From positions 5,394,001 through 5,458,000 of the forward strand of contig NZ_CP133774.1 of the NCBI RefSeq assembly GCF_034344865.1: a stretch of 64,000 bases of DNA, read 5' to 3'. The position numbers were made by a program, and so were the translations under genes. A model generated the notes under the pieces. That model was not told where the DNA came from, ran no database searches, and was given only the letters and a program-made list of their open reading frames with translations. Position 1 is the first letter of the stretch; each line of letters opens with the position of its first letter. This DNA comes from Pseudomonas sp. 10S4 (GTDB lineage Bacteria; Pseudomonadota; Gammaproteobacteria; Pseudomonadales; Pseudomonadaceae). Below, piece after piece: positions 274 to 17,158 of the stretch.

Positions 274-297
274 GTCCGCCTCGCGGACTACGCGACC
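274..297. repeat. Hairpin-tail element, copy A
   Basis: GTCCGC (274-279) and GCGGAC (283-288) form a 6 bp stem with a CTC loop, followed by the tail TACGCGACC. The architecture (GC-rich hairpin, then a tail ending GCGAC) matches copies at about 6072, 8545, 14007 and 16879. It lies exactly at the 3' end of the PLD gene. This is the most divergent copy in its tail. Confidence 0.45.
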
Positions 298-1648
298 TAA
301 TCATTAAGCCAATATACGTAGTTGAACAGAGCGTCTAACTCAGAGAGATTTTCCAACTCTAATTGGGTTTGAACCTCCCTGACGTCTCGGCAAAATTGCT
401 CGTAAAGCTCGGGGGTAACATTGGTCTTCAATGGCCGGAGGGGGTATTGATCGTAACCGGCGACGATCAACCCGCTCACCGCGTTCCGGTTCATGACCCC
501 AAATCGCTTGTTGTCCAACGCGTGGAGGATCTCCGTCAAGACATTGATGCCTGCTCGTTCAATATCTTCGAAATGGCTGTGCAATAACTCAAATGCTTCG
601 GCGGGTGTTGCGCGTTTCAGCTCCAATAACTCCGCAAGGGCACTGATGACGAGGTTCGATTTCTGCGACACGATACCCTTGCCGCGATGTAGCCCTCCGG
701 AATGAAAGCATCCGAGCAATCCTTCATAAGCCTCAAGGAAAGTATCGCGGGTGACCTTACCTAATCCCGCGATCTCTTTGACCCGTCGCCTCGCTATCAG
801 CCGATCTCTCGCCCGGTAGGTTTGTTGGGCCGTAAACCCGCAGGGCGAATCGTCAGCTTTCATGTCAGCCAACCAATCAGCCAACACCTCCAAGCTGTGC
901 ATGTCACCCCGGCAGATTTTTTCCGCACGTCGACTTGCCATTTTCCGCCAAGCCTCGTGAACGGCATAGAGTTTTGCGTACTCATTAATGCGTGGCATTG
1001 TTGCGCGAGCGAGCGCACCCTCTTCGATCAACCCTCCAAAGTGCTCTTGGATAGACGCCATCAATGCACCGTCGCGGTCGTTGACCAAAACCGATGCCTC
1101 GTAGTTGTTGGAAAAGCCGCCAGCAGTCATGTTGGCGGAGCCAACGATTACTCTGTGGCCTCCCGGCTCGCGCACTGCGTAGACCTTGGGATGAAAGGTT
1201 TCTTCTGTTGAACTCATATAGAGTTCCAGTTTGTTTTGGGAATTTTTTCCAACTTAAACAGCTCATACAGCATCGCGGGGTCGGTCACGAACAGGCTCAG
1301 ACCAACCGCCATCCGGGCTGTCATCCCACGAGCAATCGCCTGCTTGAGAGGCTCGAGGATCGTTTCGCTTGCGGAAGACTTAGCAAACGCAACCATGCAC
1401 TCCAAATGCTCAGCATTAGCCAGTAACCCGATGATTTCGTCGCCATGACCTGAGTCATAGCCATTCAGTAACAGCTTCAATCCTTGTACCATTACATCGC
1501 TCGCAGTTTGTGCCGCAGACTCGGTGTAATCGAAAATGATGATCTTTTTTGGTTGCCTAGAAGACGATGTAAGCGCTCCCTCTACAAGGGGGTAGTCGCT
1601 ACGAATGTTCGAGGTCGACTCAGAGAGATGCTGGTCACCACTTCCCAA
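297..1648 (-). pseudogene. Phospholipase D-fold nuclease, split by a one-base frameshift
   Basis: Two abutting frames make one protein of about 450 aa. The N-terminal half (1648-1214) has the helical lead-in seen in PLD-family nucleases. The C-terminal half (1217-297) begins just before the HKD-like box FHPKVY...GSANMT. The frames overlap by ATGA, but the HxK motif would then sit about 10 residues into the second protein. Lengthening the six-A run near 1236-1241 by one base joins them smoothly (residues NKLELYMSSTEE then FHPK). This makes a sequence-level indel more likely than two coupled genes. PLD-fold proteins with one HKD motif act as dimeric nucleases in several restriction systems. The start is probably a TTG overlapping the end of the Mrr-like gene by 14 bases, so the two are translationally coupled. 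A role in cutting foreign DNA is inference from context. Confidence 0.7.
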
Positions 1649-2596
1649 TGCCCTGCTCGATCAGAAGCTTCGCGAATTGATCACCATCTACCAGCTCGAT
1701 CTGAATCCCGGTAGCTTCGGCATAGTCCTCGGCCGCCTTTACAGCGCTTTCCGCAATTGTGCCGGACGTGATAACCATCCCTAGAGTGGCGTTCGCCGCC
1801 TCTATGCCGTCAATTAGCTGCTCGACGACCTTGTTGTTCACCGGGGCTTTGTCATTCCAGTGTTTGGCTTGTACGGCGAGTGTGTATTGAAAGGTTTCGG
1901 CAACACGAAACGTGGCAAGTATGTCCGCACCTTTATCCAAAAGTCTGGGAACAACCGTTGCTGTCTTTGCGCCCATCTGGATCAGCAAATCCTTAATCAG
2001 ATGCTCGAAAGAGAAGCTGTCCATATGGCCTGACCTGAGATGCTGAACTGTCTCTTTGACCAATGCGGTCTGCAGCTCGTACTTAAACGATGGTTTGTTC
2101 CCGGCCTCCGCCCGTGCAAGAGCATCTCGAATGTCGTCGAGCACATCGGTTGCCAGGGCAGTCGTACCATATACCTTCATTCTGGAAATCAATGGAGCTT
2201 TTGCGAAATCACGTGGAATCGCTTTCTTATTGTTGAGCCACCGTACGTTGCGCCGATAGCTCGTATCCTCGCCAGTGTGTTCCGGGAGATACAACGCGTC
2301 GCTTGTGATTTCAGCCAGGTAAAATTTTGGGCCGTTTGGAACGACCACCAGATCGCCCATCTTCATGTCTCGGACAAACCGCCACATATGTCCGGCAGCA
2401 CCACCAGCACGGCGGAGATTTTTTCGGGCGCGTAATGGGTGTCATGGAGTTTCTTTCTAAACGCCTTCCAAGATAGCGTTAGATCAAGAAGTCCGGCGGT
2501 TGCAGACCAGCCGATGATTACTTGATCGCTTTTCAGCGCCAGCGGCACCTTGTTTACGTTGCTGGGTGCAATTCTGAGAATAAATGCCTGTTGCAT
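1635..2596 (-). pseudogene. Mrr-like restriction endonuclease, split by a one-base frameshift
   Basis: The N-terminal part (2596-2363) carries an EVE/PUA-like restriction N-terminus with IIGWS. The main part (2387-1635) continues with WRFVRDMKMGDLVVVP and then an Mrr-type PD-(D/E)xK core, DKGADILATF followed by LAVQAKHW (the catalytic D and QAK). The parts are in different frames. Adding one A to the six-A run near 2415-2420 yields a continuous 320 aa protein with the expected linker (RRAGGAAGHMWRF). Start ATG at 2596 is the only start giving the whole N-terminal domain. It heads a two-gene unit with the PLD nuclease, overlapping it by 14 bases. Mrr-family enzymes cleave modified or foreign DNA. 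The pairing with a second nuclease suggests a restriction module, though no methylase or motor gene is visible in the window. Confidence 0.72.
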
Positions 2597-2808
2597 GCTT
2601 ACCGCCGTTTACCAGCCTATGTATCGCCCTAGGGCGTAGGCTGGATGGGTTGATTACGTCCGACTCCATGCGTGGAGAACACAAAGATGGTAAACCTCTT
2701 GATGCCTTTGATTGCGCCTCCCGGCCACTGATGGGAGGCTGTACCAGAACTGCCCTAGGCTTTCATTCCTTTCTTCTTTTTACCCGTCGTTGCTAGCCCA
2801 CGACGTGA

Positions 2809-3975
2809 CTATGCTGTTTCCTCGTCGGCCTGAAAAACCTCGATCAGTTTCTGATTGTAGTCATCCAAATAGCTCTGAAGCCCTTCCCGATCAACCAGCC
2901 GCACAGCTGCCGTACTCGCTAATTCTTTTGCAGACCTGGTGAAGTACGAGTTGGTAACGACCATCGCCTCATCGCAACCGTAAAAAGCTTTGGCGGAGAT
3001 GGCTTGCTGCACAGCGGAATTGCCCACCGAGCCAGAATAGTTTTTCGCCTGGATCACCATATTCTTGCCGAACCGGCTCACGAACAGATCAGCTCCTTGA
3101 TCAGCCGTTCTTTTGGTCTCTTTGACGTCGTAGCCAATGGTTTGGAAGATTTCGACAAGGAAGTCCTCAAACTTGAACCCGTCCATGGCGTCCACGAGAT
3201 ACATCGTGATGAACTGGTTTGGATCAAAATGCTCGAGTTGGCTCTCCAGGCGCTCCACCAAAATATCGAAATGAATCTCCTCACACAGGCTCAATGCGTT
3301 TCGAAATGCTTGCATTGGCAGTAGCGGGATTCCCGCCGTGGTGGCAGCTTGAGGGTTGAGTTGGATTCCTGAGAAAGAGACGTCGTTCTCCCATAGGAAG
3401 TAGTAGAACAAAGCGAGGTTAGCTCTGAAGCTGACACCAGCTTCCTCTATCCAAGATCGCAAGGTATCAGCCAGATTCACCTTGAGATGACGACTGAGCT
3501 CAACAGAGAAACCGTAGTATTCCGAGTTAAACGCAGTAGTCATTAACAGCTTATCTAGTAGAGATGGAAGCTCTTCAAGCTCATCGAATCCCTTGCGGAT
3601 TAGAACCTCCCTGAATAGCTCTCGCTCCGAATAGACGCCGTCCATTCTTGGCCCTGGCGCCCCGTGCCCATCTGCGCTCCCACCACCCTCGCGTGTCGTG
3701 TGAATGAAATTAATGAAGTACGGCTGCTTCAGCTCAGAATACTTTCTAAGGACGTTATTCAGCAGATCATTGAGCTGGGCCTGTTCTTTTTTCTTCCCAA
3801 AAAAATCTTGTAGGAGACCTTTCGACCTGTACTGAAAGTCCGGATAGAAAGATGGGTCGATAGGGGTCAGGTGGCGAGAGCTAAGCTCAGGCGACGGTGA
3901 AAGCTCAGAGCTTGTGCACCAGGGGCATGCCGTTTCAAACGTTGTTCGCTTGCATCCGTTGCATTGGTAGATCAT
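2809..3975 (-). CDS. Zinc-ribbon restriction endonuclease, Mrr-like catalytic domain
   Basis: This 388 aa protein starts at ATG 3975, preceded by GAAGGA at good spacing. A longer upstream frame exists but lacks protein-like character. Residues 1-20 form a zinc ribbon (CNGCKRTTFETACPWC). The middle (about 30-260) is mostly helical with a charged segment. The C-terminal 110 residues are an Mrr-type nuclease domain: FEDFLVEIFQTIGYDV, then DQGADLFVSRF with the catalytic Asp, then VIQAKNYSG with the QxK motif. It starts 37 bases downstream of the J-domain gene on the same strand, so it is probably co-transcribed. The zinc ribbon may act in DNA or partner recognition. A target has not been identified; restriction of invading DNA is inference from the domain. 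Confidence 0.8.
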   Translation of the reverse strand: MIYQCNGCKRTTFETACPWCTSSELSPSPELSSRHLTPIDPSFYPDFQYRSKGLLQDFFGKKKEQAQLNDLLNNVLRKYSELKQPYFINFIHTTREGGGSADGHGAPGPRMDGVYSERELFREVLIRKGFDELEELPSLLDKLLMTTAFNSEYYGFSVELSRHLKVNLADTLRSWIEEAGVSFRANLALFYYFLWENDVSFSGIQLNPQAATTAGIPLLPMQAFRNALSLCEEIHFDILVERLESQLEHFDPNQFITMYLVDAMDGFKFEDFLVEIFQTIGYDVKETKRTADQGADLFVSRFGKNMVIQAKNYSGSVGNSAVQQAISAKAFYGCDEAMVVTNSYFTRSAKELASTAAVRLVDREGLQSYLDDYNQKLIEVFQADEETA

Positions 3976-4012
3976 GGAATTCCTTCCCGTTGTAAAGGTA
4001 TCGCGTTTGAGA

Positions 4013-5448
4013 TTACTCAAACTCGTCTTCAGATAGGTTGTAGGTCGCCATGTTGCCGTTTTGGACTTTATACAGAGTGAGCGTGAGGTCACTGTATTGC
4101 GTGCCCCGGGAGGTTTTTCTCTTCAAGCGTGAATTGCTCGGAGCGCGACAGGTAGCCAGCGACAAGATCCCTGTAGCGCACATCATAGCTACCAGGTGTG
4201 ACTGCTTTGATCGTGAACCGCCCGTGCGCAGGAATGAACACAAAGCGAGCTGGTTTGGCGTAGTTTCCGGTTAGAGACACGAGCTTTACAAAGACATCTG
4301 AATTGTTCTGCCCATTGTCGATGGTGACAGTAGAAAGCCCATTGGAATTGGTTTGAGGGTAACCCTTCACATAAGACGCCAGCGTTGGCCACGGTTGCCC
4401 ATTTGGCGCCTTTGGAGGTCGCGTCCAAGCTCGCTTAGCAGTAGTGCCAGCACTCGTGGTGGGCGCTTGAGCTACAGGTTGGCGAGTTGTGGCTGTGCCG
4501 GCCGCATTTGATGCAGGTAGTCCAGTGGGCGAAGCCAGCTTGCCTTGACCGCCATTCGCAGTAAATTCAGAGAGGTATGGCTTAGGGCCTCGAGGTGGTG
4601 AATACGTGTGCGTCTGCGCGTTCATAGCTGCGAATGTAATGCCGCCAGCTACCGCAGCCACTACAGCTAATTGCACAAAAAACCGACGTTGCGTAAGCCT
4701 CCAGGCATTCCTGAGGCGGATAGTGTTGCCGCCGAGCGCGGTTAAGAACGCTTCAATATTTGCACGCAGCTTAGCCCCTTCATCATCGATGTATCCACCG
4801 CCGGACTTTTTTGCGAGGAATTTTTTGCGCCAAACGAAGCGCGTCCATGGCGACCGCACGAGCCATATCTGGGCGGCCAGAAGCAGCGAAATACCATGCC
4901 TGATGAGCAGCCAATCGCGCGTTTGGTAACACGGGTTGACTGCCACCGAGCAAATTCACCCAGAGGGCATGGATGGAATAGATTGGGCCCCACGGGACAC
5001 CCCACCAACCCAATGTCCAGGTAATCGCAGATGCCTGGAGAGCTTTCTTTTCTGCACAGGGGCTACAGAAAATCCCTTGGCTCATGGAACGTAGGGTGAA
5101 AACCAAAAAACTTTTGGCCTTTAAAAATATTACGTAGCGAGGCTGCGCAGATACTTTGCCACAACGGGAGCAGACGATCGGTTCGGGAACCTCAAACGTT
5201 TCGGCCGATCCTTCTTCGGCGGCCTCTACCGACATCGTGTCGTATTCGGCTCGAGACTCTGGTTCGCTCAGTACGGCATAGGCTTCATTAAGATGCTGAA
5301 ATTGGCTGGTGGCACCAGTTGACGCGTTTCGATCTGGATGTAGCTCCATCGCTCGCCGGCGATAAGCAGCTTTGATCGATGCCCCATCAGCCTCAGTATC
5401 TACTCCGAGAATTGCGTAGAAGCCCTTAGGATCCTTGCTGCCCATCAC
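4013..5448 (-). pseudogene. Membrane-anchored J-domain protein, split by frameshifts
   Basis: The N-terminal frame (5448-4783) starts with a J domain (residues 9-70, HPD motif in LHPDRN). It continues with a CxxC pair (CSRCGK), a second pair (CSPC) and a hydrophobic segment. The next frame (to about 4089) continues with an internal membrane helix (FVQLAVVAAVAGGITFAAM), a Pro/Thr/Ala-rich linker and a C-terminal beta-rich domain. A third short frame supplies the natural end, YSDLTLTLYKV...EDEFE, stopping at 4013. Both breaks fall at homopolymers: the six A at 4805-4810, and the A5 and C/G runs at 4104-4120. The joined product is about 478 aa. J domains recruit Hsp70 (DnaK). Here a membrane-tethered J protein precedes a nuclease gene. 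The start ATG 5448 puts the J domain at the very N-terminus. The frameshifts may be sequence errors. Confidence 0.68.
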
Positions 5449-6621
5449 GCCGCATCCCTGTCTTGTTTTAGTTTTTTCGTACGCATGATGTGGCCATCGA
5501 CAAGAATCAAAGTCCCTTGCGTCGTGCCATATCTAGCTTTCTGTTTGTAACCAAATTGGTTCGAACTGATTCTAGGGCAAATCGCCACTATTCAGAAGGA
5601 TCGAATCTGTTCGGACTCACGCTCCTATTTTCAATCCGGAAGTTGTGTTGCTCTCTTACCTGCTGTGAGTGCGATCGAAAGATCCATGGCCAGGCACCAC
5701 CAGGTGAGCCTAGGAACGATCGCTCAGGGCATGACGGGGCTGAAAGAGTATTGTCGAGGTGTTCTACATCACGCAGTTGAAGCGCACAGAGGCTACGTGT
5801 AACGCAGTTTTGTGCGATGTAACACACCCAACGTTACAGTGAGAAAAGTACGTTACAAACCAATGGTATGAGGGTGAAACCTCTAAATTGTACCGATAAG
5901 GGAACCCGATTTGTTGCAAGCGCCAGCCTTTCCGATGCAGCCGTAATCACCTTGAACGACACAATATTTACCGCCGTCGATAACCTAAGTCAGCAGGTGA
6001 TCTTGATCTCTATGAATGCAGGAAACCCAGGCTGCGCTCTCCAAAGATTTCAGGTGGCTTAAAAGGCTAGCCGCGACTCACGTCGCGAATAAGCGACCTG
6101 CCCTTCTCTACGAGTCGAGTTAGGCGTTCACTGCGGTCTTCACTTTTCATTGCCAAAGAGCCGGATCCTAGGCAAAAGCAGGAGAAGTCAATCGAGCCGG
6201 CTGACCTGAAAACTATGAATGCCAAAATATGGTGGAGGCTCCAAGATCTCTGCTTTTGTTTTGCTATCAAATAAGAACTCCGATTTCTTTTTTGGATTCA
6301 AGGGGCACTGCCAAAATAATTTTTTGGGTGGCTTCTTGGCGCTGCTTATCGCTAACTGATTCGGACGGTGCTGCCACGCTTTCCTAGCTAGTCTTGCTGG
6401 CTCTGGGGCCTTGTGCCAAAGCGGAAGCCGGCCACCATCTTCCCCACTTCAACATATTCAAGGTGCTCGGCATGACCAATGCCGACACGGCCGTACGTAA
6501 CGCTCTACGCCGCAACACGCGCGCCTGTGACGCACCTGCATCTTCGCGTTCGGTCGTTCTCCTTCGGTAGATATGGAGTCGTGCGTATACTTCACCCCTC
6601 CTCAACCGCTTAAGCTTTCCA
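5449..6621. other. Long gap without a convincing gene
   Basis: About 1.17 kb separates the J-domain gene from the EndA-like gene. Short open frames exist on both strands but none has a ribosome site with protein-like composition. Two ACGTTAC repeats lie at about 5831 and 5851, a possible regulator site. A hairpin-tail element sits at 6072. In the + frame from 6418 to about 6550 a protein-like stretch (HLPHFNIFKVLGM) has no start and may be a gene remnant. The divergent genes on each side imply two promoters here. Confidence 0.4.
6072..6100. repeat. Hairpin-tail element, copy B
   Basis: CGCGAC (6072-6077) pairs with GTCGCG (6082-6087) around a TCAC loop. The tail AATAAGCGACCTG follows. The stem sequence differs from the other copies while pairing is kept; the tail is nearly identical to copies C and D. 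Confidence 0.5.
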
Positions 6622-7587
6622 ATGAAAAAACTGCTTTCTGTAGTAGCGCTATTTCTCTCGGTAATTACCCCCGCTTTTTCAAACCCTCCATCGACCTTTT
6701 CCGAAGCAAAGGTCGTTGCAAAACAAAAGATCTACCTCGATCAAGCCGACAGCTCCATGGGCGAGCTGTATTGCGGCTGCAAATGGACGTGGGTAGGTAA
6801 GTCCGGTGGCCGTATCGATGCTGAGTCATGCGGCCTTAAGGCCAGAAAACAAGAGAATCGGGCAGAACGGACTGAGTGGGAACACATAGTTCCAGCCTGG
6901 ACATTCGGTAACCAACGCCAATGCTGGCAGAATGGCGGTCGAGAGAACTGTGTGGATGATGATCCCGTTTTCCGAGCCATGGAGGCCGATCTTTTTAACC
7001 TCTATCCATCTGTAGGTGAGGTGAACGGCGACCGTAGCAATTTCAATTACGGTATGGCCTCCGGGGTAGCGCCTCAGTATGGTCAATGCAAAACCCGAGT
7101 TGATTTCGATCAACGAGCTGCGGAACCGCGTGATGAGGTCAAAGGGCTGGTCGCGAGAACAACCTTTTACATGTTCGACAGATATAAACTGAGCATGTCT
7201 CGTCAGCAGCAACAGCTACTAATGGCCTGGGATAAGCAGTACCCGGTTTCGTCTTGGGAGAAAGAGCGAGATCGCCGCATTGCAGCAATCATGGGGCACT
7301 CGAATCCATTCGTAACTGGCGAGCGGCGATGGTCGCAGGGGTACAAGGCAGTTGGTGATGGGGTGGTTAGCACCGTTCCAATCAATCCTCCGCGGACACC
7401 AGTCCAGCCATCCCTTGCGAGCGCATCCGCAGTAGGCTCGATCATTGGTAACCGTAAAAGTCAGGTCTACCACCTCTCAATGGGGTGCCCAGGTTATGGG
7501 CAGGTGTCAGCGAAAAATCAGATTTCCTTCACTTCGGAATCGGAAGCTCAAGCGGCGGGATACCGAAAGGCAGGCAACTGCAAATAA
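6622..7587 (+). CDS. Secreted EndA-type endonuclease I with C-terminal Ada-like zinc domain
   Basis: This 321 aa protein has a signal peptide (MKKLLSVVALFLSVITPAFS), consistent with periplasmic or extracellular location. Residues 28-235 match endonuclease I: conserved Cys pair CGCKW, catalytic-region motif EWEHIVPAW, and the NLYPSVGEVNGDRSNF segment typical of the beta-beta-alpha metal nuclease fold. The last 45 residues (GNRKSQVYHLSMGCPGYG to the final GNC) resemble the small Ada-type metal-binding domain found at the ends of secreted nucleases. It degrades DNA, probably for nutrient use or to deal with extracellular DNA; a defence role is not shown. It is a single + gene between minus-strand units. 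Confidence 0.85.
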   Translation: MKKLLSVVALFLSVITPAFSNPPSTFSEAKVVAKQKIYLDQADSSMGELYCGCKWTWVGKSGGRIDAESCGLKARKQENRAERTEWEHIVPAWTFGNQRQCWQNGGRENCVDDDPVFRAMEADLFNLYPSVGEVNGDRSNFNYGMASGVAPQYGQCKTRVDFDQRAAEPRDEVKGLVARTTFYMFDRYKLSMSRQQQQLLMAWDKQYPVSSWEKERDRRIAAIMGHSNPFVTGERRWSQGYKAVGDGVVSTVPINPPRTPVQPSLASASAVGSIIGNRKSQVYHLSMGCPGYGQVSAKNQISFTSESEAQAAGYRKAGNCK

Positions 7588-7768
7588 TTGCTTCTCGTTG
7601 AAAAAGGTCTCGTGAAAACGAGGCTGTCTCCGATTCAACTGGCACCTTCAGATCGTTTTTTGGGGCACCGGTGATCCGCGGAGTGTCGGGAGCAATCCGT
7701 GGATTGTGTCTGTTTTTTGTGTTGTCGCTGCCTCACAGAAGGTGTTTGCCAGAGTTGTTATTTTCAGC

Positions 7769-8233
7769 TTACTTTTCCTTGATCGACAAGATTGTTACGT
7801 CTGCTGGTACGAGCTTTCCGTTCTCTACCGCGTAGAGAGTCGCCTCCGGGGGACAACCAGTATCTCCAACGCTCTGTGTTTTTTTGGTAGCCGAATAGGC
7901 CCCCGTTAAAGCAGCCACCATTTCAGGCACTTTGGTATCTGTGGTTTGCCCAACAGTAGCAATCATGCCTTGCGAAAGCGTAACGGTCAGATTCGATGAT
8001 CCTATTGCTCCCGACTTGAGCTTGAGGCGCTTCTTTTCAGTCGGAACCATCAACACTTGAGTGTTGTAAGTGCAATCCTTTGTGGATTGAATCAACACGT
8101 ATGGCGTGCCCTCGTAATACAACATCCCATCGTTCGTCTCGTCGCTCTCGCCGTGGTAGTCGAAGTCAATTGAGGCGCAAGCGGAAAGAGCGCAGAAAGG
8201 AAAGATCAACAGCCCCAGGAATCGACGATCCAT
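7769..8233 (-). CDS. Hypothetical lipoprotein
   Basis: 154 aa. The start ATG 8233 has GGAG eight bases upstream and gives a proper lipoprotein signal with lipobox LSAC (Cys about residue 20). The mature part has no motif I recognise. It contains two further Cys (CTYNTQ and CPPEAT) that could form a disulfide, and a KLKSGAIGSSNLTVTLSQG segment suggesting a beta-rich fold. It is an envelope protein of unknown function, transcribed alone. Confidence 0.65.
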   Translation of the reverse strand: MDRRFLGLLIFPFCALSACASIDFDYHGESDETNDGMLYYEGTPYVLIQSTKDCTYNTQVLMVPTEKKRLKLKSGAIGSSNLTVTLSQGMIATVGQTTDTKVPEMVAALTGAYSATKKTQSVGDTGCPPEATLYAVENGKLVPADVTILSIKEK

Positions 8234-8691
8234 GATTTTCTCCAAGTGGCGGCGGCATACTGTCCGCACTGGGATTCTAGTCGCACCCTAAGGATTTTCC
8301 TGCGGAGAATCGATCGGTTCGCGCTTGAGTGAATTCGGCCCCCACTCTAACGGCCAATTACGGTCGTTTCACATTTCAACACGAGGAAATGGCAAAACGG
8401 TCTTTACGAGAATCAACCGAAGGGATTTAAGAAAACGGTAGAGTCGTTAGGCTTGGTTTGGCAGTGATACCTATCACTGAGGGATTGACGACGCTAGAAA
8501 TGTTGCTTCCATCGTTAACAAAATACTGGGGTGACTAGGTGAGCCGGGCTTTACGGCCCGAAGAAACGACCTGCACATTCATGGCTTTACCTAACCAAAG
8601 TCGGGCGTTGGCTACGATTGCCTCCTCTCAGCTAGCTGTGATCACTCCTCCAACGTCGAGTCAGGCTCACACTCGTTCAAGATCAGTAATC
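8234..8691. other. Gap holding hairpin-tail element
   Basis: No supported gene is seen in these 458 bases. The dispersed element copy C lies at 8541-8573. The + frame here (8539-8865) overlaps the next gene and looks like its shadow. Confidence 0.4.
8541..8573. repeat. Hairpin-tail element, copy C
   Basis: GAGC then CGGGC (8545-8549) pairs with GCCCG (8556-8560) around TTTACG. The tail is AAGAAACGACCTG. The GAGCCGGGC start is shared with copies D and E. Confidence 0.55.
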
Positions 8692-9093
8692 TTATGCAGC
8701 ACCGGCATAGCAAGCTTTGCACTTGGGGCATGTCCATTTTCCAGCGAAATCAAAATCTGCAGGCATACTCGAGAGCCTGACTCGCTTCTTGCCATCATCC
8801 CAACAAGATGTACAAAAGCGTCCGCTTTCGCCCGCAAAACTGTAAACCCCTTCTTCAGTGTATGAGGGCTCACCTGCCTGGCGCTCCGCCAGTTGCTGCT
8901 CAAGATCAAGTACCCGTTCCTGCGCTGCGGCCAGCTTCATTTTCAGATCTCCTGACTCTAACTTCGCATCAGCCAGTGCAGAATGTAGATCGGCGAGCAG
9001 CATCCTAAAATCGGCGTCCTCAATTTTCTTGGATAGCTCCCGCAGCTTCGTTGATGCATCGAGCGCCTGCTGGAGTAAGGCCATAACATCCAT
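8692..9093 (-). CDS. Small coiled-coil zinc-ribbon protein
   Basis: 133 aa. The start ATG 9093 follows a GAGGG site. Residues 5-75 are helical with heptad-like Leu spacing (LRELSKKIEDAD, LEQQLAERQ), so a coiled coil is likely. The C-terminal 40 residues hold two Cys pairs (CTSC and CPKCKAC) forming a zinc ribbon. Similar small proteins are common next to mobile or defence genes, with no assigned role. It is followed by no same-strand partner within 450 bases. Confidence 0.65.
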   Translation of the reverse strand: MDVMALLQQALDASTKLRELSKKIEDADFRMLLADLHSALADAKLESGDLKMKLAAAQERVLDLEQQLAERQAGEPSYTEEGVYSFAGESGRFCTSCWDDGKKRVRLSSMPADFDFAGKWTCPKCKACYAGAA

Positions 9094-9202
9094 TTTCGAA
9101 CCCTCTAATTTGGGTATGCCAGGTTGGCTCCGCCCGACCATACGCCTAGCGCGTTACAAGGCGTTACTAATGATGGGTACATCGACTTCAAGAGATTTTG
9201 CG

Positions 9203-9571
9203 CTATTGAGTAGCCACAGTCGAACCGGGAGACGGGCCTTCGCTGAAGGTATAGTTAATGACGACGTCATTTCTGATCAGGACATCCAGAGTCTTCTGAG
9301 TACCCGTTGTCGTTACCTTCATCGTCACGACGTAGCTCTGCGCATGAGCTGAGCCGTTCGTGTATGTGTAGATCCATTTCTCGTCGGTTTCGCTCACAGC
9401 GCTCTTCGCGTATGGCTCACCAAAGAGCGATTTGAGCTCCGCAGTAGTCGTCTTCCCCTTCTCTAACCTGATCACATTTGCTGAGGAGAAATCCCGGCCA
9501 GCGGTGAAGTGGGAAGTGGCGCATCCGCCGAGCACGAAGCACATTCCAATTGCTACGATGAGTTTGTTCAT
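9203..9571 (-). CDS. BamE/SmpA-like small lipoprotein
   Basis: 122 aa. ATG 9571 has AGGGA five bases upstream and starts a signal with lipobox LGGC. The mature sequence contains the typical small outer-membrane lipoprotein pattern: a KGKTTTAELKSLFGEP motif, then a beta segment WIYTYTNGSA. This is the fold shared by BamE and related proteins, where LFGxP marks the turn. A link to envelope stress is inference. It could be co-transcribed with the 9093-8692 gene downstream, about 110 bases away. Confidence 0.68.
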   Translation of the reverse strand: MNKLIVAIGMCFVLGGCATSHFTAGRDFSSANVIRLEKGKTTTAELKSLFGEPYAKSAVSETDEKWIYTYTNGSAHAQSYVVTMKVTTTGTQKTLDVLIRNDVVINYTFSEGPSPGSTVATQ

Positions 9572-9765
9572 GGTCATCCCTGGTGAAGTAAAGAGTCTGA
9601 AGACTAATGCCCGCGACATCAAAATGCTATCACTCCAGCTGGGCCAATTTAAGCATTGCTATTATCGCAGCTTGCGAGTGCCTGCGACGTGATAGGCAAC
9701 TGCCCTGAAGAAAATACAATAGAATCGAGCGATTTAGCGTCTGGCGCGATACTCGAATGCTAGGT

Positions 9766-10569
9766 TCATGACTGCTGGCGCCGCAGTCGGTCGTTTTCAT
9801 CCAGAATAAACAGTCCCGACCAGATGGCAGCCCAGAACTGCAGCGTTACTATCCAGGGGCTGGACATGAGCCAAACCACCGTCCTACGCCAAAACGACCA
9901 GAACGTCTTCTTCGAAGACCGCCTGCTTGGTAGCGGGGTGTAAGCAGATCCCCCACGAATGCCGAATCCCCATCTCCAATACATCTCTATTTCGCGCTTC
10001 GCGTAGGCAATCGAATTGGAGTTCCAGCAAACACCCCACCGACGACTCCACGTGTCCTGCAGCAACCACGTGTGAGTAAGGTGAGAGGTAAGTGAATCGA
10101 ATTCCGTTACGCTTTGACCTCCTACCAGCTCAACGACACATTTACGAAATTGGTAGCTCTCCACGGAAAACCGAATATCGTTCTCAAGGTGCGAAAGGAA
10201 TTTTTGCGAAGGAATGCTCACAAGGTTAAAAACGATCGGAGAGCGATCTAGGTCATGCACAGTTATCGCGTCTTGATATCGAACACCCGCGCCCACTGCT
10301 TCAAATACGCATTCAAATTTCGTGACTCCAATCTCCACTGCTCGGAACGCCACCTTGGAAACTCGAGGCTCGGTGTCGGTAGGCTTTGCCAGATAAAGGG
10401 AATACTCGACATGCTGTCCTAGCTTTTGCCATCGAGCTCCAAGTCGGTGACGCTTCGTCCATCGTTGATGCGCGTCGGAATAGGTTTTATAGAACATCGC
10501 CTTGGTAAGGCGTTGCCAGCCCCATGCGACTGCCTTGAAAACTACTCCCCATAGCGTCGGTATCGTCAT
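9766..10569 (-). CDS. Hypothetical protein with C-terminal membrane segment, downstream of PHP-ATPase
   Basis: 267 aa. ATG 10569 has GGAG at good spacing. It is Trp-rich and basic at the N-terminus. A likely membrane helix near the C-terminus (WIVTLQFWAAIWSGLFIL) is followed by a charged tail. I do not recognise a family. It lies about 150 bases downstream of the PHP/SMC ATPase gene on the same strand and may be its partner, for example a membrane-acting subunit; that is inference from position only. Confidence 0.55.
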   Translation of the reverse strand: MTIPTLWGVVFKAVAWGWQRLTKAMFYKTYSDAHQRWTKRHRLGARWQKLGQHVEYSLYLAKPTDTEPRVSKVAFRAVEIGVTKFECVFEAVGAGVRYQDAITVHDLDRSPIVFNLVSIPSQKFLSHLENDIRFSVESYQFRKCVVELVGGQSVTEFDSLTSHLTHTWLLQDTWSRRWGVCWNSNSIAYAKREIEMYWRWGFGIRGGSAYTPLPSRRSSKKTFWSFWRRTVVWLMSSPWIVTLQFWAAIWSGLFILDENDRLRRQQS

Positions 10570-10717
10570 GTTCGCTCCTAGCAAATGTTTGTAATTACGT
10601 ACCTAGCTACGTCAAACCACACCACCTGGCCATCTGGTAGGCCAAACCGACGGAACTTCCTATACCCGTATCGCGAAGGCCAACGATATAGTGCGGCACT
10701 CATGTTCTGCCATCAGT

Positions 10718-13700
10718 TTACTGCAATCGATACTTACCTTGCCGGTTCTTGAAAGCAGGCTCAGTACCTTCAAGAATTTCGACCACACGTGCTTTGATGT
10801 CGGGATGCTCTATCGCCCCGGCTTCATAATCGAACCGACTCGCAGCCTTGTCACACGCAGCATGGATGATCTGCTCAGCATCACACACCACGGCTAGATT
10901 GGGGTTGTGCGTCACCATGATTACTTGCCGGCGCTCCTTCGCTCGCTTGATGCACTTCACCATAACTCGAAAAATAGTCTGGTTGTCCAAGTTCTCTTCG
11001 GGCTGATCAATGACAATCGGAATATCATCCTCATCCACCAAAAGGTAGAAAACCAGAAGGAGCAAGCCGCGTTCGCCGGGCGAAAGCTGCCCGATCTCCT
11101 GCCCCTCGTAAGTCAATGAGTACCGGGGAGCCAGGTAATCCAGGCAGTACAAATAATCCAACAATTCCTGTGCAGTCACGGTTCGAGCGAGCTGGTCGGC
11201 TAAGAGAATCTGTTTTTCGGGCTGCCCTTCTCGACGGTCGAAGTGAAGCAAATCGTCAATCGCGTCGGCAAAGGCCACGGCCTCATTCGCCGTTTCGAAA
11301 CTGGCGGCCAACAGTAGGTTGCGCAGCATCTGAGAGCTCTCGTCGACGCCCATGAATGATCCCCTAACCCTCTGATTGATTCGTTTCAGAAGCTGGTCGG
11401 CAAACCCTGTTTCTTCAATTCGAACCTGGAAATCCAGAGGAAGGTTGAGCTCGCGCTGCTCCTCCGAGTTAACGAAACGCTGTACAGGTAAATAGAGTCG
11501 GCTGAACTCATCAACCATGGACTGGATCAAGCCGTGCATCTCACAAGCTTTGTCAAAACGCTCAGCACGAAGTACCGTCTGCTGCGCTGGCAGGTCTGCC
11601 AACAATTCTATCTCGGCTTGCAGCTGCACAAGACTTCCCGGCTTGTCTGCAGCGCCAATGAGCTCTGCTTTGGCGCGCTCCCAGCTTGCCAGGTTTTCCC
11701 TGTAGACCACATACAGCCTTTGCGCTTCTCCTAACTTGCTTTTAGCTTCTACAAGTTGAGACGCAGCCAGCGCCTTGCGTTGTAAAATACTGCCCTGCTC
11801 CTCACTTCCCAGGTCGATATCAATCGCCTTGACTTGCGCTTGAGCCGCTGCGGCGATGGCGTCAACCGGCCCGGTATCGACCCTCATGGTTACTAGGGAG
11901 TCGATGGGTAACTCCACATCGAGATCTGCCATCAATACTTTCAGGTCACCGAGGAAGGCCGCATGCTGCTTGCCGTAATTGACTAAAGCAGTAGAGATTC
12001 GTTTGGCAACCGCTTCTCTCTTAAGCGAAACCGATCTGGCGGTCTTGAGCGCTGCTTCCTCGCCTTCGATCTTGCGACCTTCGCCTTCAAGGACGGCCAC
12101 TTGCTCTGCCGCCTGTTTCGTTTCAGCCAAGGCCTCAGGAGAAACACTTGGATCTAGTACTGGCTGCGGTTGAGCTTCATTTAATGCCGCAAGCTCTCCT
12201 TGCTTGGCAGCCAATTGCTCCTGCAGAGATTTAAGGAAATCTTTTGTCGACCGCCGTTCTGCTTCAATGATTTCTGCGTTGATCTTGCCAATGCTCTCCC
12301 TCAAGCCTTTGCGAGCCTTTTCTATTTCTGCGACCTTGAATTCTAGGAGTTCGTCCATAGAGGCTTTACCAAGCCGTTCCTCTTCAGGGACATGGGAGTA
12401 GATGATTTTTCGGAGCTCTGCATCAAAGGTTGAAGATCCACCCTCCCCAAGCTCATTACACAAATCTTCCAGATAACTTTGAGGGAGATACTTCACTCGT
12501 TCCACACTGCTGGGTTCAGGATCCTCTTGCAGAGATCTCTGCGTGACAGAGCCGTCCAGCCAAGTCAATGCACCTATGAAATTCTCCGCGAACTTCCGTT
12601 TTGGGCTGCGAAACCGTGTGTTTTTAAGGAATGAAAACTTCGCATGGTGCTTGGTGTTTCCCACCAGCGCGATGACATCGGATAGGGCGCTTTTACCACT
12701 GCCCTTGTTGCCAATGATCGCCACCAAGTCTGGATTTAGAGGAATATCCAAATCGAACCAGGGCTCCGGAAGAGCGGAGTCAGCCACCTTGCTAACTTTG
12801 ATTGAGCTTATGAATTTGGTTTTGCTCTGCTCAATCATCTTCTGCTTTGGTGGAGCATCGCCGACATACACCCGGTCATCGAACTCATGAATGGCTTGAA
12901 GCAGGCCCTGAAATGTAGAGTCGGCTTTGATCCATGTGAAACAGTTTCCGACACGGTCTTTATCTTTCGAGGTACTGAGCGAATGCGCATCGGAGCAATC
13001 AAGAAGGCGGGCATTGACCTGTGCCGCCTTCAATCCATTGCGCGCCTTCAAGTAGGCTTCCGGATTAGCAGCGGCGGTAAAAACTAGATCTGCGTCATTA
13101 ATTATCGTCTTCTTGTCCGCGATCGTATGGTCGTTCCAGCGCAGACTGTCCCACTCGCTTTTTCCCAAGGCGATGATGTGCTTACCATCAAAATGTTGTG
13201 TCTTAAGAGCCGCTCGGACAGCCTCGAAACTGACATTCAAGTTATTGAACCCGACCTTCAGCGCTGAAGGTGCACCGGCCCGCAATGCTTCCGGCATTGA
13301 CTTGAGGACTCGCTCCCCAAGGTCGATCAGATTGACTTTTGTAATGACTCCGGCCCAACGCCCGCCTGGCGACTCAGGTACGAGGGAGTACCCCTGAGAA
13401 ATTGCAGGCATAAACTGCTCACGAATCAGTTGAGGGTCTACCTCATCGAAAACAACATGGAGGTTGATCCGGCTCCAACTGGAAGGCTTATAACCCTCCT
13501 CGCCTTGCTCCAATATTCCGCCGAACTTATCTAGCCGCAGCTCCACTACAGGAAGAACAAGCTCAATATTTGCAAGACGCCCCTTACGCCGCTCCTCCAG
13601 AACACGGGCATATCCATCTACGAATAGGTAGTCGTTGATGCCTAGAACTTTGAACTCGGCTGGCAATCTCTCAAGGTCGTCTAGAAATGCCTCCCACGCC

Positions 13701-13798
13701 GCCTCCTTTTCGCCGGGGTAGTGGTGAACCAATGACTCGGGGGTGTGGACGTGAAGATCCCATTTTTTCCATGTCGAGCCCTGCAAAATTACTGGCAT
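10718..13798 (-). CDS. PHP-domain plus SMC-like ATPase (TrlF family)
   Basis: 1026 aa. The N-terminus carries a PHP phosphoesterase domain (WDLHVHT with the HxH metal site, about residues 10-300). A P-loop follows at about residue 365 (GNKGSGKS). A long coiled-coil region spans about 480-780. The C-terminal ABC/SMC half has signature LSPGERG, Walker B IPIVIDQPEENLDN and H-loop VTHNPN. PHP domains hydrolyse phosphoesters. Fused to an ABC ATPase with long coils, the protein probably senses or moves along nucleic acid and cleaves it. Related PHP-SMC proteins recur in defence islands; this placement between nuclease modules agrees. Start ATG 13798 immediately precedes the PHP motif. No frameshift is seen. 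Confidence 0.8.
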   Translation of the reverse strand: MPVILQGSTWKKWDLHVHTPESLVHHYPGEKEAAWEAFLDDLERLPAEFKVLGINDYLFVDGYARVLEERRKGRLANIELVLPVVELRLDKFGGILEQGEEGYKPSSWSRINLHVVFDEVDPQLIREQFMPAISQGYSLVPESPGGRWAGVITKVNLIDLGERVLKSMPEALRAGAPSALKVGFNNLNVSFEAVRAALKTQHFDGKHIIALGKSEWDSLRWNDHTIADKKTIINDADLVFTAAANPEAYLKARNGLKAAQVNARLLDCSDAHSLSTSKDKDRVGNCFTWIKADSTFQGLLQAIHEFDDRVYVGDAPPKQKMIEQSKTKFISSIKVSKVADSALPEPWFDLDIPLNPDLVAIIGNKGSGKSALSDVIALVGNTKHHAKFSFLKNTRFRSPKRKFAENFIGALTWLDGSVTQRSLQEDPEPSSVERVKYLPQSYLEDLCNELGEGGSSTFDAELRKIIYSHVPEEERLGKASMDELLEFKVAEIEKARKGLRESIGKINAEIIEAERRSTKDFLKSLQEQLAAKQGELAALNEAQPQPVLDPSVSPEALAETKQAAEQVAVLEGEGRKIEGEEAALKTARSVSLKREAVAKRISTALVNYGKQHAAFLGDLKVLMADLDVELPIDSLVTMRVDTGPVDAIAAAAQAQVKAIDIDLGSEEQGSILQRKALAASQLVEAKSKLGEAQRLYVVYRENLASWERAKAELIGAADKPGSLVQLQAEIELLADLPAQQTVLRAERFDKACEMHGLIQSMVDEFSRLYLPVQRFVNSEEQRELNLPLDFQVRIEETGFADQLLKRINQRVRGSFMGVDESSQMLRNLLLAASFETANEAVAFADAIDDLLHFDRREGQPEKQILLADQLARTVTAQELLDYLYCLDYLAPRYSLTYEGQEIGQLSPGERGLLLLVFYLLVDEDDIPIVIDQPEENLDNQTIFRVMVKCIKRAKERRQVIMVTHNPNLAVVCDAEQIIHAACDKAASRFDYEAGAIEHPDIKARVVEILEGTEPAFKNRQGKYRLQ

Positions 13799-14261
13799 CG
13801 CACTTTCCCCGATATCCCGATCAGAACCTCAGAGTGAAGCTCCTTCCGCCACTGAGGAAAGCTCATCGAAGCGACTTCTGCCGGGAAATGCACAAATTTG
13901 GCCACATGAAAGTGGGAAGAACGTTTTTTGGACGAGATCAATCAGACTCAACTGCAGAATCATTCTGCCAGCAGTATGGTACCTAGGCGCACACATGACG
14001 GCGAGCCGGGCTGTAGCCCGAAGAAGCGACAGTCCAAGGCACTGTCCAATAACTACCTTATGAACACAATCAGCCCTTCTCCAATCCACCGACCGCCCAT
14101 CAAGAAATGGCTCATGAGCCTGAATTTCTGGTCGTAGCTGGGAAGGTTGTTGCTAAGAGGCTCAAAGTCGCCCGGGAAAGCCGCGCACAATTTGATCTTT
14201 TTTCCAGCCATCAAGTCAGTGTTCATCTTGCCGATACAGCACGCAATTCAGTGAGTAAAGG
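13799..14261. other. Gap with hairpin-tail element
   Basis: No supported gene is visible in 463 bases between divergent modules. It contains hairpin-tail copy D at 14003-14032. A related tail without a clear stem (GAAGCGACTTCTG) occurs at 13869. The + frame 14107-14319 has no ribosome site and overlaps the next gene. Confidence 0.4.
14003..14032. repeat. Hairpin-tail element, copy D
   Basis: GAGC precedes the stem CGGGCT (14007-14012), which pairs with AGCCCG (14015-14020) around GT. The tail is AAGAAGCGACAG. It has the best-formed stem of the set. Confidence 0.55.
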
Positions 14262-15074
14262 TTGCGTGTGGAAACTTTTCGAAAATCGTTGCCGGTCGTC
14301 GCTAGATGGGTTGGGATAGCTTGGAGATGTTTTTCCAGTACTAGCGTGCTGGGCGTGCTTTCAGTTATAGCGACAACAATGTCGGCGTACGCTGCCTTTC
14401 TTTCCTTTCAGGCTACCCAGAGCGCCACCCGCGTGGCCGAAGCGTCCCAGGCTTTTTCTCAGAAAATCTATAGTGATCAGATCGCGATGGGGCGCCCATC
14501 CATATCTATTCTTTCCGGAGAAACATCGATTTTTGAGGTGTTAGAAAACTCGTACTCAAATCGAACTATAAAAAAATACACTGCGTCCCTCATTTTGAAG
14601 AACTCTGGACTACGTGACACACAAAGAGCCTGGATCGCCTTGTCCAGTGCCGGCTCCAAGGTTTCAGTCGCTACCCTCCCAAAGGATACCGAATACAGTG
14701 TTCCATTCGACATTAGCTGGGCATCAGAATCGGACTTAGACAGGAGCTCGTGGTATGCCGCAATTGTGTACGAAGACCAAGTACCAGTCGAAGGCCCCGC
14801 GCCGACAGCCCCTTCTTCAAGTCAAGAGGTGTCAAAGCCGGCACCCCTTCGTGTAGTTTGCTCAGATGTAGCCGTTTTCGAGATGACATCATGGCCAAAA
14901 GACCCAGCTCAAGATCCTTCAGTCAGAACCCTCTCCTCCGGCTCACCTGTTGCAGTCAGGCGAATGGCATCAGACAAGGAAAGCATTAATTGGGGCTCAG
15001 AGGATTATTCAGTCAGAAAGAGTGTCGTTGCTGCTATTAGAGATGCAAGGGCGTGTTCGGATAAGGTGTTTTGA
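14262..15074 (+). CDS. Membrane-anchored hypothetical protein
   Basis: About 270 aa starting at TTG 14262 or GTG 14268; AAGG lies just upstream. A membrane helix spans about residues 25-50 (VLGVLSVIATTMSAYAAFLSF). A helical stretch follows (SATRVAEASQAFSQ), then a beta-rich soluble domain, perhaps immunoglobulin-like, with a Pro/Ala/Ser linker around residue 180. Two late Cys (RVVCSD, RACSD) could pair. No family is recognised. It precedes a CoiA-like gene on the same strand, separated by 355 bases, so a shared operon is possible but unproven. Confidence 0.6.
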   Translation: MRVETFRKSLPVVARWVGIAWRCFSSTSVLGVLSVIATTMSAYAAFLSFQATQSATRVAEASQAFSQKIYSDQIAMGRPSISILSGETSIFEVLENSYSNRTIKKYTASLILKNSGLRDTQRAWIALSSAGSKVSVATLPKDTEYSVPFDISWASESDLDRSSWYAAIVYEDQVPVEGPAPTAPSSSQEVSKPAPLRVVCSDVAVFEMTSWPKDPAQDPSVRTLSSGSPVAVRRMASDKESINWGSEDYSVRKSVVAAIRDARACSDKVF

Positions 15075-15429
15075 ACGCAAGGGACACATCATTGAGGCAT
15101 CGATGACGCTCGAAACGTAGTTCAAGCGACGACTCGAGCGCAGAGCATTTTGAATACAACCTCTCCTCTCGCCGCCCGCGAAGTCTGCCAGGTACTGACG
15201 GACTTCGCGCTCGGCAAACGCATCATGATGGGAAGCACCGTCTACCACACTGAGCCAGCAATCCTGAAGGATGTAAAACAAGAAGCCAACGCTGATGAAG
15301 CTGCCGTAGCTTCGTCGACGTATCGTTACAGTGCTAGCCCACCACTTTCACATTCTCGAAACTCAAGCGTTTCAGGCCTGATAGCGAAACGCTATTCTCC
15401 CCGGCTATACCTCTTCGGATTGCATTGCT
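15075..15429. other. Intergenic region with two inverted repeats
   Basis: Two perfect inverted repeats lie here. CGCGAAGTC (15177-15185) pairs with GACTTCGCG (15201-15209), and AGCGTTTC (15366-15373) pairs with GAAACGCT (15386-15393). Neither is followed by a T-tract, so they look more like operators or RNA folds than terminators. The + frame 15150-15437 lacks a ribosome site. Confidence 0.4.
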
Positions 15430-16680
15430 ATGGATGACGCTCTGGTGGTCTTTTCACGGAAAGGCCTCTTCCAAACTCCGATTACGGCTTACGAAATTAA
15501 AAGCCGGGAGCATTATCGAAAGATGTGGCCCTTGGTCACTGCTGACAAACCCCACCGCCTCGTAAGCTGGGTGAGCCCTTGTTTCAATGATGATGGAAAG
15601 CTGAAAACACGCAGCTATTTCAGAACGTACACTGGCAAACGCGGCGTTCGAGCCGCGGACTATTTCGACAGCCAGGAACAAGCTCGACAACGTCATATTG
15701 GCGAAAGCGAGGAGCACAGGCGAGCCAAGCAGCTGATAGCCGATGAGCTTCAGCGCCGACTCGACGCAGGGCTCGCTATGCCCTGGTACTACAGGGATGA
15801 CACGATTAGCCAGTATCACCTGGCCGGCAATCTTCTGCTCGGGGCTAATGGCGTTACCCAAGAACAGAACATCAAGACACCGTTTGGCAACTCCTATCGC
15901 CTTGATGTGGCGGTGCTTGGCAAGCCCATTCTTCGGCATCCGATGGTGCTGGCGGGTATCGAAATTGAGCTTGGCCACGCATTTGATGGGCGAAAGGCTC
16001 TGGCTAGTCGCTCAATGGGCTTTCCTCTCATATCCATCGACATCACCGACATGAGTCTGGATCAGCTGACACCACAGTGGGCCCGGCAGGCACTGACTGC
16101 AACGAAGTCCAGTGATGATGAGAGCCGGCGCAAGACGTTCATCTACCTGAATGACCTGCTCTATCCACTGTATGTTCAGTTGCCCTCTACGCTGATCGAA
16201 GGGGATGACTTCCGACACCAGTTCATTGTATTTGCCGCTGATGAACATCTGGAGCGGGTAAAAGCGACGCTGGCCAAGGTCAGTTCGGCACTAGGGCTTC
16301 AGAGCCCTACGGTTCTACTGGGAGTCGTCAACGGCAAAAGCGAGTCAGCAGCCAAGCAAGTTGCCAACCTCGGCGACATCGCGGGGCCGGATTGGCGTGA
16401 GTTCAACGAGCACCGCTGCCTGACGATCACCTTGGATCGCCCCAGGACACCGCAGGACGAGCCGAGTCACCTCATGCACATTGCCATTGCCGCATTACTG
16501 GCTGGCAAGGGCAATGCCTTGGTGGGTTACAAGAACCGGCTCGGTATCATTAACCATCGTCCCGAAGAAGACGTCTGGAATGAGTATCGACGTGGAACCT
16601 GGCACCGCACCTTGCCCAAACGTCTTGCGGAGCCATTCCAGCGCTACTTGGCAGTGATTGACCAGCTACATAGCCAATAA
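15430..16680 (+). CDS. CoiA-like protein with a predicted PD-(D/E)xK nuclease fold
   Basis: 416 aa. Around residues 97-115 the pattern GESEEHRRAKQLIADEL resembles the helix that opens CoiA-like domains. It is followed about 60 residues later by YRLDVAVLG and then GIEIELGHAFDGRKAL, which supply candidate catalytic Asp, Glu and Lys of a PD-(D/E)xK nuclease core. The C-terminal 170 residues are unassigned. Start ATG 15430 has no obvious ribosome site; TTG or GTG alternatives upstream are out of frame. It ends just before a recombinase remnant. CoiA itself acts in competence. In a defence island a DNA-processing role is likely, but the substrate is unknown. Confidence 0.62.
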   Translation: MDDALVVFSRKGLFQTPITAYEIKSREHYRKMWPLVTADKPHRLVSWVSPCFNDDGKLKTRSYFRTYTGKRGVRAADYFDSQEQARQRHIGESEEHRRAKQLIADELQRRLDAGLAMPWYYRDDTISQYHLAGNLLLGANGVTQEQNIKTPFGNSYRLDVAVLGKPILRHPMVLAGIEIELGHAFDGRKALASRSMGFPLISIDITDMSLDQLTPQWARQALTATKSSDDESRRKTFIYLNDLLYPLYVQLPSTLIEGDDFRHQFIVFAADEHLERVKATLAKVSSALGLQSPTVLLGVVNGKSESAAKQVANLGDIAGPDWREFNEHRCLTITLDRPRTPQDEPSHLMHIAIAALLAGKGNALVGYKNRLGIINHRPEEDVWNEYRRGTWHRTLPKRLAEPFQRYLAVIDQLHSQ

Positions 16681-16707
16681 GCTCCATCCCTATCGGCTCT
16701 GAGCCGG

Positions 16708-16827
16708 ATGGCACAAATCAGGGCCATTTCTCCGTCAATCGCACGCAAGGATTACGAACAACGCCGCGAGCGCCAGGCACAGGACATTGCAAAGGTTAAA
16801 GCCGATGGCATCTATAGACGATGCTAA
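16708..16827 (+). pseudogene. Remnant of a serine recombinase (resolvase/invertase) C-terminal linker
   Basis: A 39-codon frame contains IARKDYEQRRERQAQDIAK followed by VKADGIYRR. This matches the helix E region just before the DNA-binding domain of Tn3/Hin-type serine recombinases. The catalytic domain and the helix-turn-helix are both absent. It lies 28 bases after the CoiA-like gene and before the Shango genes, so it is a scar of a past integration or resolution event at this module boundary. Confidence 0.6.
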
Positions 16828-16874
16828 AAATGTCGCTTCAACCGTGAAAGAGATGCTCGCCTGACTCCCTGCTT

Positions 16875-16907
16875 GAGCCGGGCCCAGGTGCCCGAAAAAG
16901 CGACTTC
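16875..16907. repeat. Hairpin-tail element, copy E
   Basis: GAGC is followed by CGGGC (16879-16883), loop CCAGGT, and GCCCG (16890-16894). The tail is AAAAAGCGACTTC. It lies in the 480-base gap before the Shango genes, between the recombinase remnant and sngA. A minus-strand frame at 17042-16824 covers the element but has no ribosome site. Confidence 0.55.
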
Positions 16908-17158
16908 TCCATCTGGCGTACCTGGCACCGCTAAGTGATGGGTAATCTCACCGCACGCGATATTAAAGGACATCCAGCGCAGCGCATTCGCCACGGCTAG
17001 AGATCGTTCGAGATCGACGGTTGAGAATTCATCTTCTTCCATTACTGCAACTGCTTAGATTTCCGATCAACAGCCTTGCGCAGCCCATAGATCTAGCAAT
17101 GCAATTATCAGATACTGCCATAGCGCCAGCACCCATCTTTCAAGGTTGAAAACGAATC

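Follow-up and report, generated by a model that had tools for sequence, protein, structure and literature searches.

The 64,000 nucleotides of Pseudomonas sp. 10S4 analysed here (contig NZ_CP133774.1, positions 5,394,001 to 5,458,000 of the forward strand; hereafter the window, with positions counted from its first letter) carry a short hairpin followed by a conserved tail that recurs between defence modules. Four copies, all on the plus strand, could be read directly, each with an AGC triplet, a hairpin and a tail. Site 1 lies at 6069..6096 (AGC 6069-6071, hairpin 6072-6087 with the stem CGCGAC/GTCGCG, tail 6088-6096), site 2 at 8542..8569 (AGC 8542-8544, hairpin 8545-8560, tail 8561-8569), site 3 at 14004..14029 (AGC 14004-14006, hairpin 14007-14020, tail 14021-14029) and site 4 at 16876..16903 (AGC 16876-16878, hairpin 16879-16894, tail 16895-16903). 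In a search over 35 sources with R1, a covariance model built from an alignment (A1) of 58 sites that includes these four copies, they scored 36.1 bits (E 2.7e-8), 44.6 bits (E 4.2e-11), 42.5 bits (E 2.0e-10) and 43.4 bits (E 1.0e-10), respectively. The preliminary description of this DNA had counted five copies. The one at 274 shows a stem of 6 bp and a tail-like CGCGACCT, with neither the AGC nor the AA positions in place; like the possible degraded copy at 23241 and the bare tail at 13869, also proposed then, it gave no R1 match at E ≤ 1, and we dropped all three.

The blocks of genes that end at sites 2, 3 and 4 are our proposed cassettes. The block at 6097..8569 (plus strand) comprises an endonuclease I gene (6622-7587, Pfam PF04231), a small minus-strand gene, an exonuclease remnant and site 2; the endonuclease I family was found in regions of 4 genomes, always in the same orientation to the sites. 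The block at 8570..14029, not assigned to a strand, holds small genes, the gene of a Ppl-like AAA-type protein of 1026 aa on the minus strand (10718-13798) and site 3. The block at 14030..16903 (plus strand) consists of ORFs 14262-15074 and 15430-16680, the remnant of a small gene recurring in arrays (15150-15437; presumably of family DUF7693), an exonuclease remnant and site 4. The remnant left of site 2 (8366..8531, plus strand) was recognised by tblastn with a 205-aa exonuclease (Pfam PF00929) of genome G011, of which it covers residues 151-205, broken by a stop. That left of site 4 (16733..16861, plus strand) corresponds to residues 157-205 of the 3' end, a weak match at E 0.028 with last codons alike by eye. 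In G011 the hairpin follows the stop codon of this exonuclease gene, for which phage annotation suggests the label ERI1-like, and the region around 16879 has three related copies there, 72-79% identical.

Form, distribution and pairing of the site

The sites form a compact family, to which the window copies belong, with the consensus AGC-[CGGGC-loop-GCCCG]-AARRAGCGAY. The whole site measures 25-29 nt, and among the 136 sites kept for analysis the hairpin has 13 to 17 nt. Positions are given below as an index, 0 being the first base after the stem and negative numbers standing for positions left of the hairpin. When one representative was taken for each of 26 left and 42 right flank families, the conserved core ran from the AGC at -3 through the A at index 8, index 9 was C or T, and weaker conservation appeared at -16 to -14, at -9 and at 12.

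Over the whole 7.27-Mb genome (one contig), R1 gave five matches at E ≤ 2.3e-6, four of them in the window, and one more at E 0.3; since the window copies helped to build the model, this result speaks for exclusivity and not for discovery. The suggestion of a small mobile repeat dispersed genome-wide finds no support in this count. The fifth site stands alone at G000:C1:5491531-5491571, about 80 kb right of site 4 and on the same strand. The pattern GAGCCGGGC-N(2-10)-GCCCGAA occurs 3 times in the genome, always in the window, against one occurrence of the backward control. The tail alone is not enriched (24 window matches with up to 3 mismatches, 19.6 +/- 4.3 in shuffles). A structural scan of fetched islands (1.44 Mb on both strands, partly redundant) returned 97 matches against 23 in reversed sequence, many of them following unrelated genes.

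Within the genus, R1 matches at E ≤ 1e-4 were obtained in 34 of 398 genomes, our own included; 21 of these carry at least two, mostly clustered on one strand, and 13 carry one. The preliminary description had named a family enriched at island junctions as what would support it, and this distribution bears that out in the main. Across the class, 4 of 369 genomes gave matches, the three besides our own having one marginal match each (E 8.7e-6 to 8.4e-5). One exact match to the site pattern was also noted in a viral contig, IMGVR_UViG_3300045738_001353 (L243:2975-3002).

The 136 kept sites fall in 46 regions, which were reached via the exonuclease or R1 and are thus not a random sample; 33 of them contain at least two sites. 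We left out 21 rows from loci repeating the same records (L081, L085, L086, L089, L090) and the weak rows, namely 7 at E ≥ 8.5e-4 in one R1 run (in which L076:1938, E 0.002, was kept) and 5 at E ≥ 0.004 in another. The spacing between kept sites has a median of 3.0 kb and ranges from 0.36 to 19.4 kb. The kept sites of any one region are all on one strand, opposite-strand rows being among those dropped (L087:3097, E 8.5e-4; L208:2114, E 0.018; L072:10728, E 0.88), and the blocks preceding the kept sites are unrelated. Orientation relative to the sites was constant in 19 of the 28 most widespread gene families, the largest of which show counts of 21/0, 0/16, 17/0 and 0/8.

Pairing was said in the preliminary description to be kept despite sequence change. 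In the 58 aligned sites, 96% of the cells are paired, and changes on both sides were counted in 16 cells belonging to three pairs; the covariation score is 0.140, compared with 0.053 +/- 0.010 in shuffles. None of 500 shuffles was as high for paired cells, both-side changes or covariation score, 4 were for the number of pairs with a double change, and 60 for the number of pair types. This test is biased because most of the sites came from a scan demanding a perfect stem, which favours compensated changes. A less biased check used 23 exonuclease 3' ends picked by protein similarity alone, the copies being related to one another: 17 have a stem of at least 5 within 45 nt downstream, against a mean of 2.7 and a maximum of 6 in 200 shuffles. 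For the copy at 14007, the best predicted fold differs from the site hairpin.

Exchange of neighbouring blocks at the site

Flanks were compared for the 135 sites with 250 nt on both sides. Pairs of sites shared the left flank only in 740 cases, the right flank only in 246 and both in 160. These pairs are not independent; single linkage groups the flanks into the families mentioned above (26 left, 42 right), of which 65 combinations occur. The left family with most members (64 sites) meets 26 different right families, and the right family with most members (40 sites) meets 9 left ones. At index 10 the left-only pairs are 0.33 identical, against 0.25 in unrelated pairs. The right-only pairs are 0.84 identical at index 10 and 0.32 at -5, left of AGC, and further left they are mostly near background.

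The same switch could be followed where two blocks adjacent in one genome are split by a third in another. In G273 an exonuclease block is directly followed by a small-gene block; in P. fragi D12 (L092) an insert of 3,039 bp, bounded by one site on either side, stands between the two. The left flanks are 90% and the right flanks 85% identical to those of G273, and the change of partner lies somewhere from the hairpin to about index 17. In total, 53 such triples were found, covering 21 filled loci and 22 joined sites. At -4 the informative bases of the triples favour the left block by 38 to 5, and at index 10 they favour the right block by 22 to 2. Finally, of the 1,536 stretches of similarity between regions, 284 have their end and 73 their start at a site in both partners, while 200 sets of random sites gave 0.1 on average for each and never more than 2 starts or ends. 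The suggestion that the repeat is a recombination site is therefore backed by neighbouring blocks that change partners at it. In these alignments the sequence goes with the left block as far as AGC, and from about ten bases beyond the hairpin it goes with the right one. We had also considered a cut exactly nine bases past the hairpin, with the hairpin staying with the left block, and abandoned it, the triples and pair averages being mixed within the site.

From sequence comparison, then, each of these elements is probably a site-specific recombination site that closes a gene cassette at its 3' end within a defence-rich array. Cargo blocks would be joined one after another, every block finishing with AGC, hairpin and AARRAGCGAY, and neighbours would be exchanged within the site. 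Cassettes may leave and enter as circles or as single strands. The site would be recognised as an extruded hairpin, as suggested by a hairpin length that is not constant (13 to 17 nt) next to an AGC and a tail of constant form. The enzyme would be a tyrosine recombinase, possibly supplied by the multi-recombinase operons that lie near eight arrays and are described below; the window array would then be an orphan array, because it has no such operon.

A number of observations weigh against this proposal. All comparisons are between species, the only listed same-species relative, G237, being without a site at E ≤ 1e-4, and we infer the excision, the circle and the enzyme. The boundary itself is blurred: left-only pairs keep an excess of identity to about index 25 (0.59 vs 0.33 at index 15), right-only pairs show one at -7, -9 and -15, and hairpin similarity is about equal in the two kinds of pairs. 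Within the site the triples are mixed, with left-to-right counts of 1:10 for the whole hairpin, 12:16 for hairpin length, 1:9 at index 2, 17:17 at index 3 and 10:0 at index 6. Because the block with which hairpins and tail bases agree is sometimes the left and sometimes the right one, we did not place the strand cut inside the site. In some pairs with G298:30538 the hairpin clearly sides with the right block, and the left flank there resembles a second, degraded site directly before. When the sites were shifted as a control, left ends at -200 numbered 90, above the 73 at the site, which in our opinion is due to exonuclease fragments, and right ends at +60 still numbered 107. Orientation is mixed in 9 of the 28 gene families, among them a LysR-type family (7/11) that is perhaps part of the surrounding chromosome. 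The single hairpins of the window fold no better than shuffles (z -0.6 to -1.1, plus strand). Nineteen of 39 exonuclease copies are 5'-truncated with the 3' end kept and have no site where they begin on the left, and the Shango stretch described below does not end at a site on its right; other rearrangements therefore also shape the arrays. No left partner box of the attC type was found, the only conservation on that side being weak, at -16 to -14 and -9. In the stretches examined, many of which extend only a short way to the left, an operon was seen for only 8 of the 46 regions; at least three kinds of operon can be told apart, and in G283 the operon is on the other strand.

In a rival explanation, the exonuclease gene and its downstream hairpin are a repeated gene, modules are shuffled by homologous recombination between its copies and the hairpin is a passenger. 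An exonuclease or remnant precedes 39 of the 136 sites, full copies share about 650-700 bp at about 70-87% identity, and many left-only pairs are exonuclease pairs, whose shared left block needs no event at the site. But the other 97 sites were not assigned to an exonuclease, right-only pairs with unrelated left blocks switch at the site, and the junction of the P. fragi insert with the small-gene block has no exonuclease sequence in the aligned flank, all of which makes this explanation unlikely. We consider slightly less likely still that the hairpin and tail are the end of a single-strand transposon (HUH, IS200/IS605-like or Helitron/IS91-like) that carries cargo and inserts beside older copies. 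The elements of the Helitron/IS91 kind have a hairpin with the element end about 10 nt further, and truncation at the 5' side with a constant 3' end fits one-ended movement. However, none of the 37 listed matches to Y1 HUH transposases fell in the array stretches of 14 array genomes, which also led us to reject Y1 as the enzyme (an IS91/Helitron-type Rep was not searched for), and no left-end hairpin turned up, although no search was aimed at one. The Y1 HUH transposase linked to the repeat that would mark an IS200/IS605 or REP/RAYT system is thus missing from these stretches.

A Rho-independent terminator or RNA processing hairpin at operon ends, the former already raised in the preliminary description, is very improbable. 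The nearest ORF end within 300 nt to the left belongs to a plus-strand ORF for 81 of the 136 sites, as such a role would have it, but 35 sites follow a minus-strand ORF and TTTT within 15 nt after the stem was seen at one site, the other 135 having no T-run. Moreover, partners are exchanged at the site, the genome holds five strong matches only, and Rfam gave no match at the gathering score in window positions 1-30000. Separately, we gave up an early view of the repeat as the 3' terminus of the exonuclease gene serving whole islands as their attachment site, as sites also follow unrelated genes.

Cargo, exonuclease and candidate recombinases

Under the cassette interpretation, the arrays would carry a varied defensive cargo. 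A Shango-type (SngABC) module follows site 4 at 17060..23094 (plus strand; PADLOC and blastn), and this 6.0-kb stretch recurs in three other arrays, 84-90% identical by blastn. In the window sngA (17159-19368) consists of two overlapping ORFs matching successive parts of one SngA model, where related arrays have one ORF of about 805-811 aa; the window gene looks broken. A Pycsar cyclase gene and a neighbouring ORF come after the module (23442-25306), and Mrr-type nucleases lie left of site 1. The G011 array encodes Shedu, a TIR effector, a DpnII/MboI-type nuclease and an NYN protein. Ten large proteins of G249, G295, G172 and G267 were chosen by size and position, two of them right of the last kept site; 8 match PADLOC models at E ≤ 1e-10, including Gabija GajA, HEC-08, PDC-M68B, PDC-S73 and PDC-S06, some of these matches being to shared domains only. 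A 2.98-kb query from the window (28617-31600) gave short weak matches only, in seven relatives, and no empty locus could therefore be placed.

Relatives of the exonuclease with at least 75% identity were found in at least 6 of 298 genus genomes, in several copies in some; matches at E ≤ 1e-6 exist in 293 of the 298, mostly near 40% identity among the matches listed. Close relatives are present in named records such as P. fluorescens PS862, P. arsenicoxydans E3, P. umsongensis DSM 16611, P. fragi D12 and Pseudomonas sp. TH43. Plasmids and phages yielded distant relatives only (below 60% identity), and viral contigs 37% at best. The 5'-cut copies look as if the 3' end and its site had been reused for new cassettes.

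Multi-recombinase operons, made up of tyrosine-recombinase-like genes, were found left of the first site, in the direction of the sites, in G011, G249, G267, G273 (both arrays), G121 and G254 (where the operon is cut by the contig end), in addition to that of G283, which is also on the left. In G249 the first site (24.5 bits) starts 158 nt past the last operon ORF, and in G121 a weak site (20.5 bits, E 0.004, outside the set of 136) starts 95 nt past the operon. The G011 operon contains three ORFs with PF00589 matches (E 1.3e-9, 5.8e-4 and 3.3e-3) and a 139-aa ORF. At its start (L018:1781-1914) a 31-nt unit, with ATATTGACA, stands four times in tandem at a spacing of 34-35 bases. Between the operon and the first site, G011 (L018:8037-8744), G273b, G121 and G254 have a leader ORF, and relatives of it were noted at other places in G059c, L082 and L092; for that of G011 neither Pfam nor NCBIfam gave a match. 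Of ten proteins compared from three arrays, nine from operons and one a leader protein, none matched a family above the cut-off, with sub-threshold hits only to XerC/XerD/XerA-type and integrase_1 models; the genomes were not searched for IntI. The examined stretches of the other 38 regions contain no relative of these operons, for which reason the enzyme is put forward as a proposal. Phage-integrase matches occur in at least 20 more genomes among the matches listed. The PF00589 match closest to the window array is at contig position 5372614, some 27 kb to the left of site 1.

How defence islands gain and exchange their systems is an open question, on which a defined site gives a direct handle. 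One covariance model can find the arrays, and block edges can be called to within a site. Unknown genes that lie between sites turn into candidates for a role in defence, and a search for the recombinase by assay becomes possible.

Comparison with known systems

Variable defence modules at one locus, Shango among them, are also a feature of the Pseudomonas defence hotspots (PMC10250203; PMC12629846), as far as the available text of these two papers goes. The available text of PMC10250203 proposes transduction and homologous recombination as the route and asks how enigmatic hotspots are built; in the main text of PMC12629846 the terms cassette, repeat, GInt, exonuclease, integron and tyrosine recombinase never occur. 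No description of the site was found in titles and abstract openings of the open-access literature, preprints and subscription papers being outside this scope. The REP and REPIN sequences of Pseudomonas are likewise short GC-rich extragenic hairpins. REPs are scattered over the genome; here there are five strong matches in 7.27 Mb instead.

Two families of elements resemble the operon-bearing arrays. GInts have ginABCD, three tyrosine recombinase genes and a small gene, at their 5' end, and the G011 operon, with three recombinase-like genes and a small gene left of an array of varied cargo, is similar in make-up as judged from its PF00589 matches; the window has no such operon. In the available text of PMC5385486 no cassette sites are described in GInt cargo and the role of the integrases in cargo acquisition is without empirical evidence, and GInts carry defence genes according to the corresponding text of PMC10121019. 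The strand-biased circularizing integrative elements (SEs) also have a four-gene recombinase operon at the left end. According to the available text of PMC10214605, SEs move whole between terminal motifs with a 6-bp spacer, and internal cassette sites are not described in it.

The closest parallel is with the cassette arrays of integrons: blocks each end in a site, share one orientation, have an imperfect hairpin with a variable loop and carry varied cargo. The blocks here differ in being large (median 3.0 kb) and in having genes often on either strand. The attC sites of integrons bear the boxes RYYYAAC ... GTTRRRY, with exchange at G|TT, and clusters of attC without an integrase are known as CALIN. 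In contrast, the consensus AGC-hairpin-AARRAGCGAY is without attC boxes, and there is no further strong conservation within 45 nt on either side. We did not file the arrays as an integron because the attC consensus failed and no integron integrase was seen where it was looked for. More broadly, we consider it conceivable, though somewhat less than an even prospect, that they represent a second natural cassette-capture system, independent of integrons, in which a multi-subunit SE/GInt-type tyrosine recombinase would act on a folded site, single-stranded or cruciform, and both build and reshuffle arrays of Pseudomonas anti-phage cassettes, orphan arrays like that of the window included. On the present analysis, the best reading is that the arrays would work like integron cassettes with a different site sequence.

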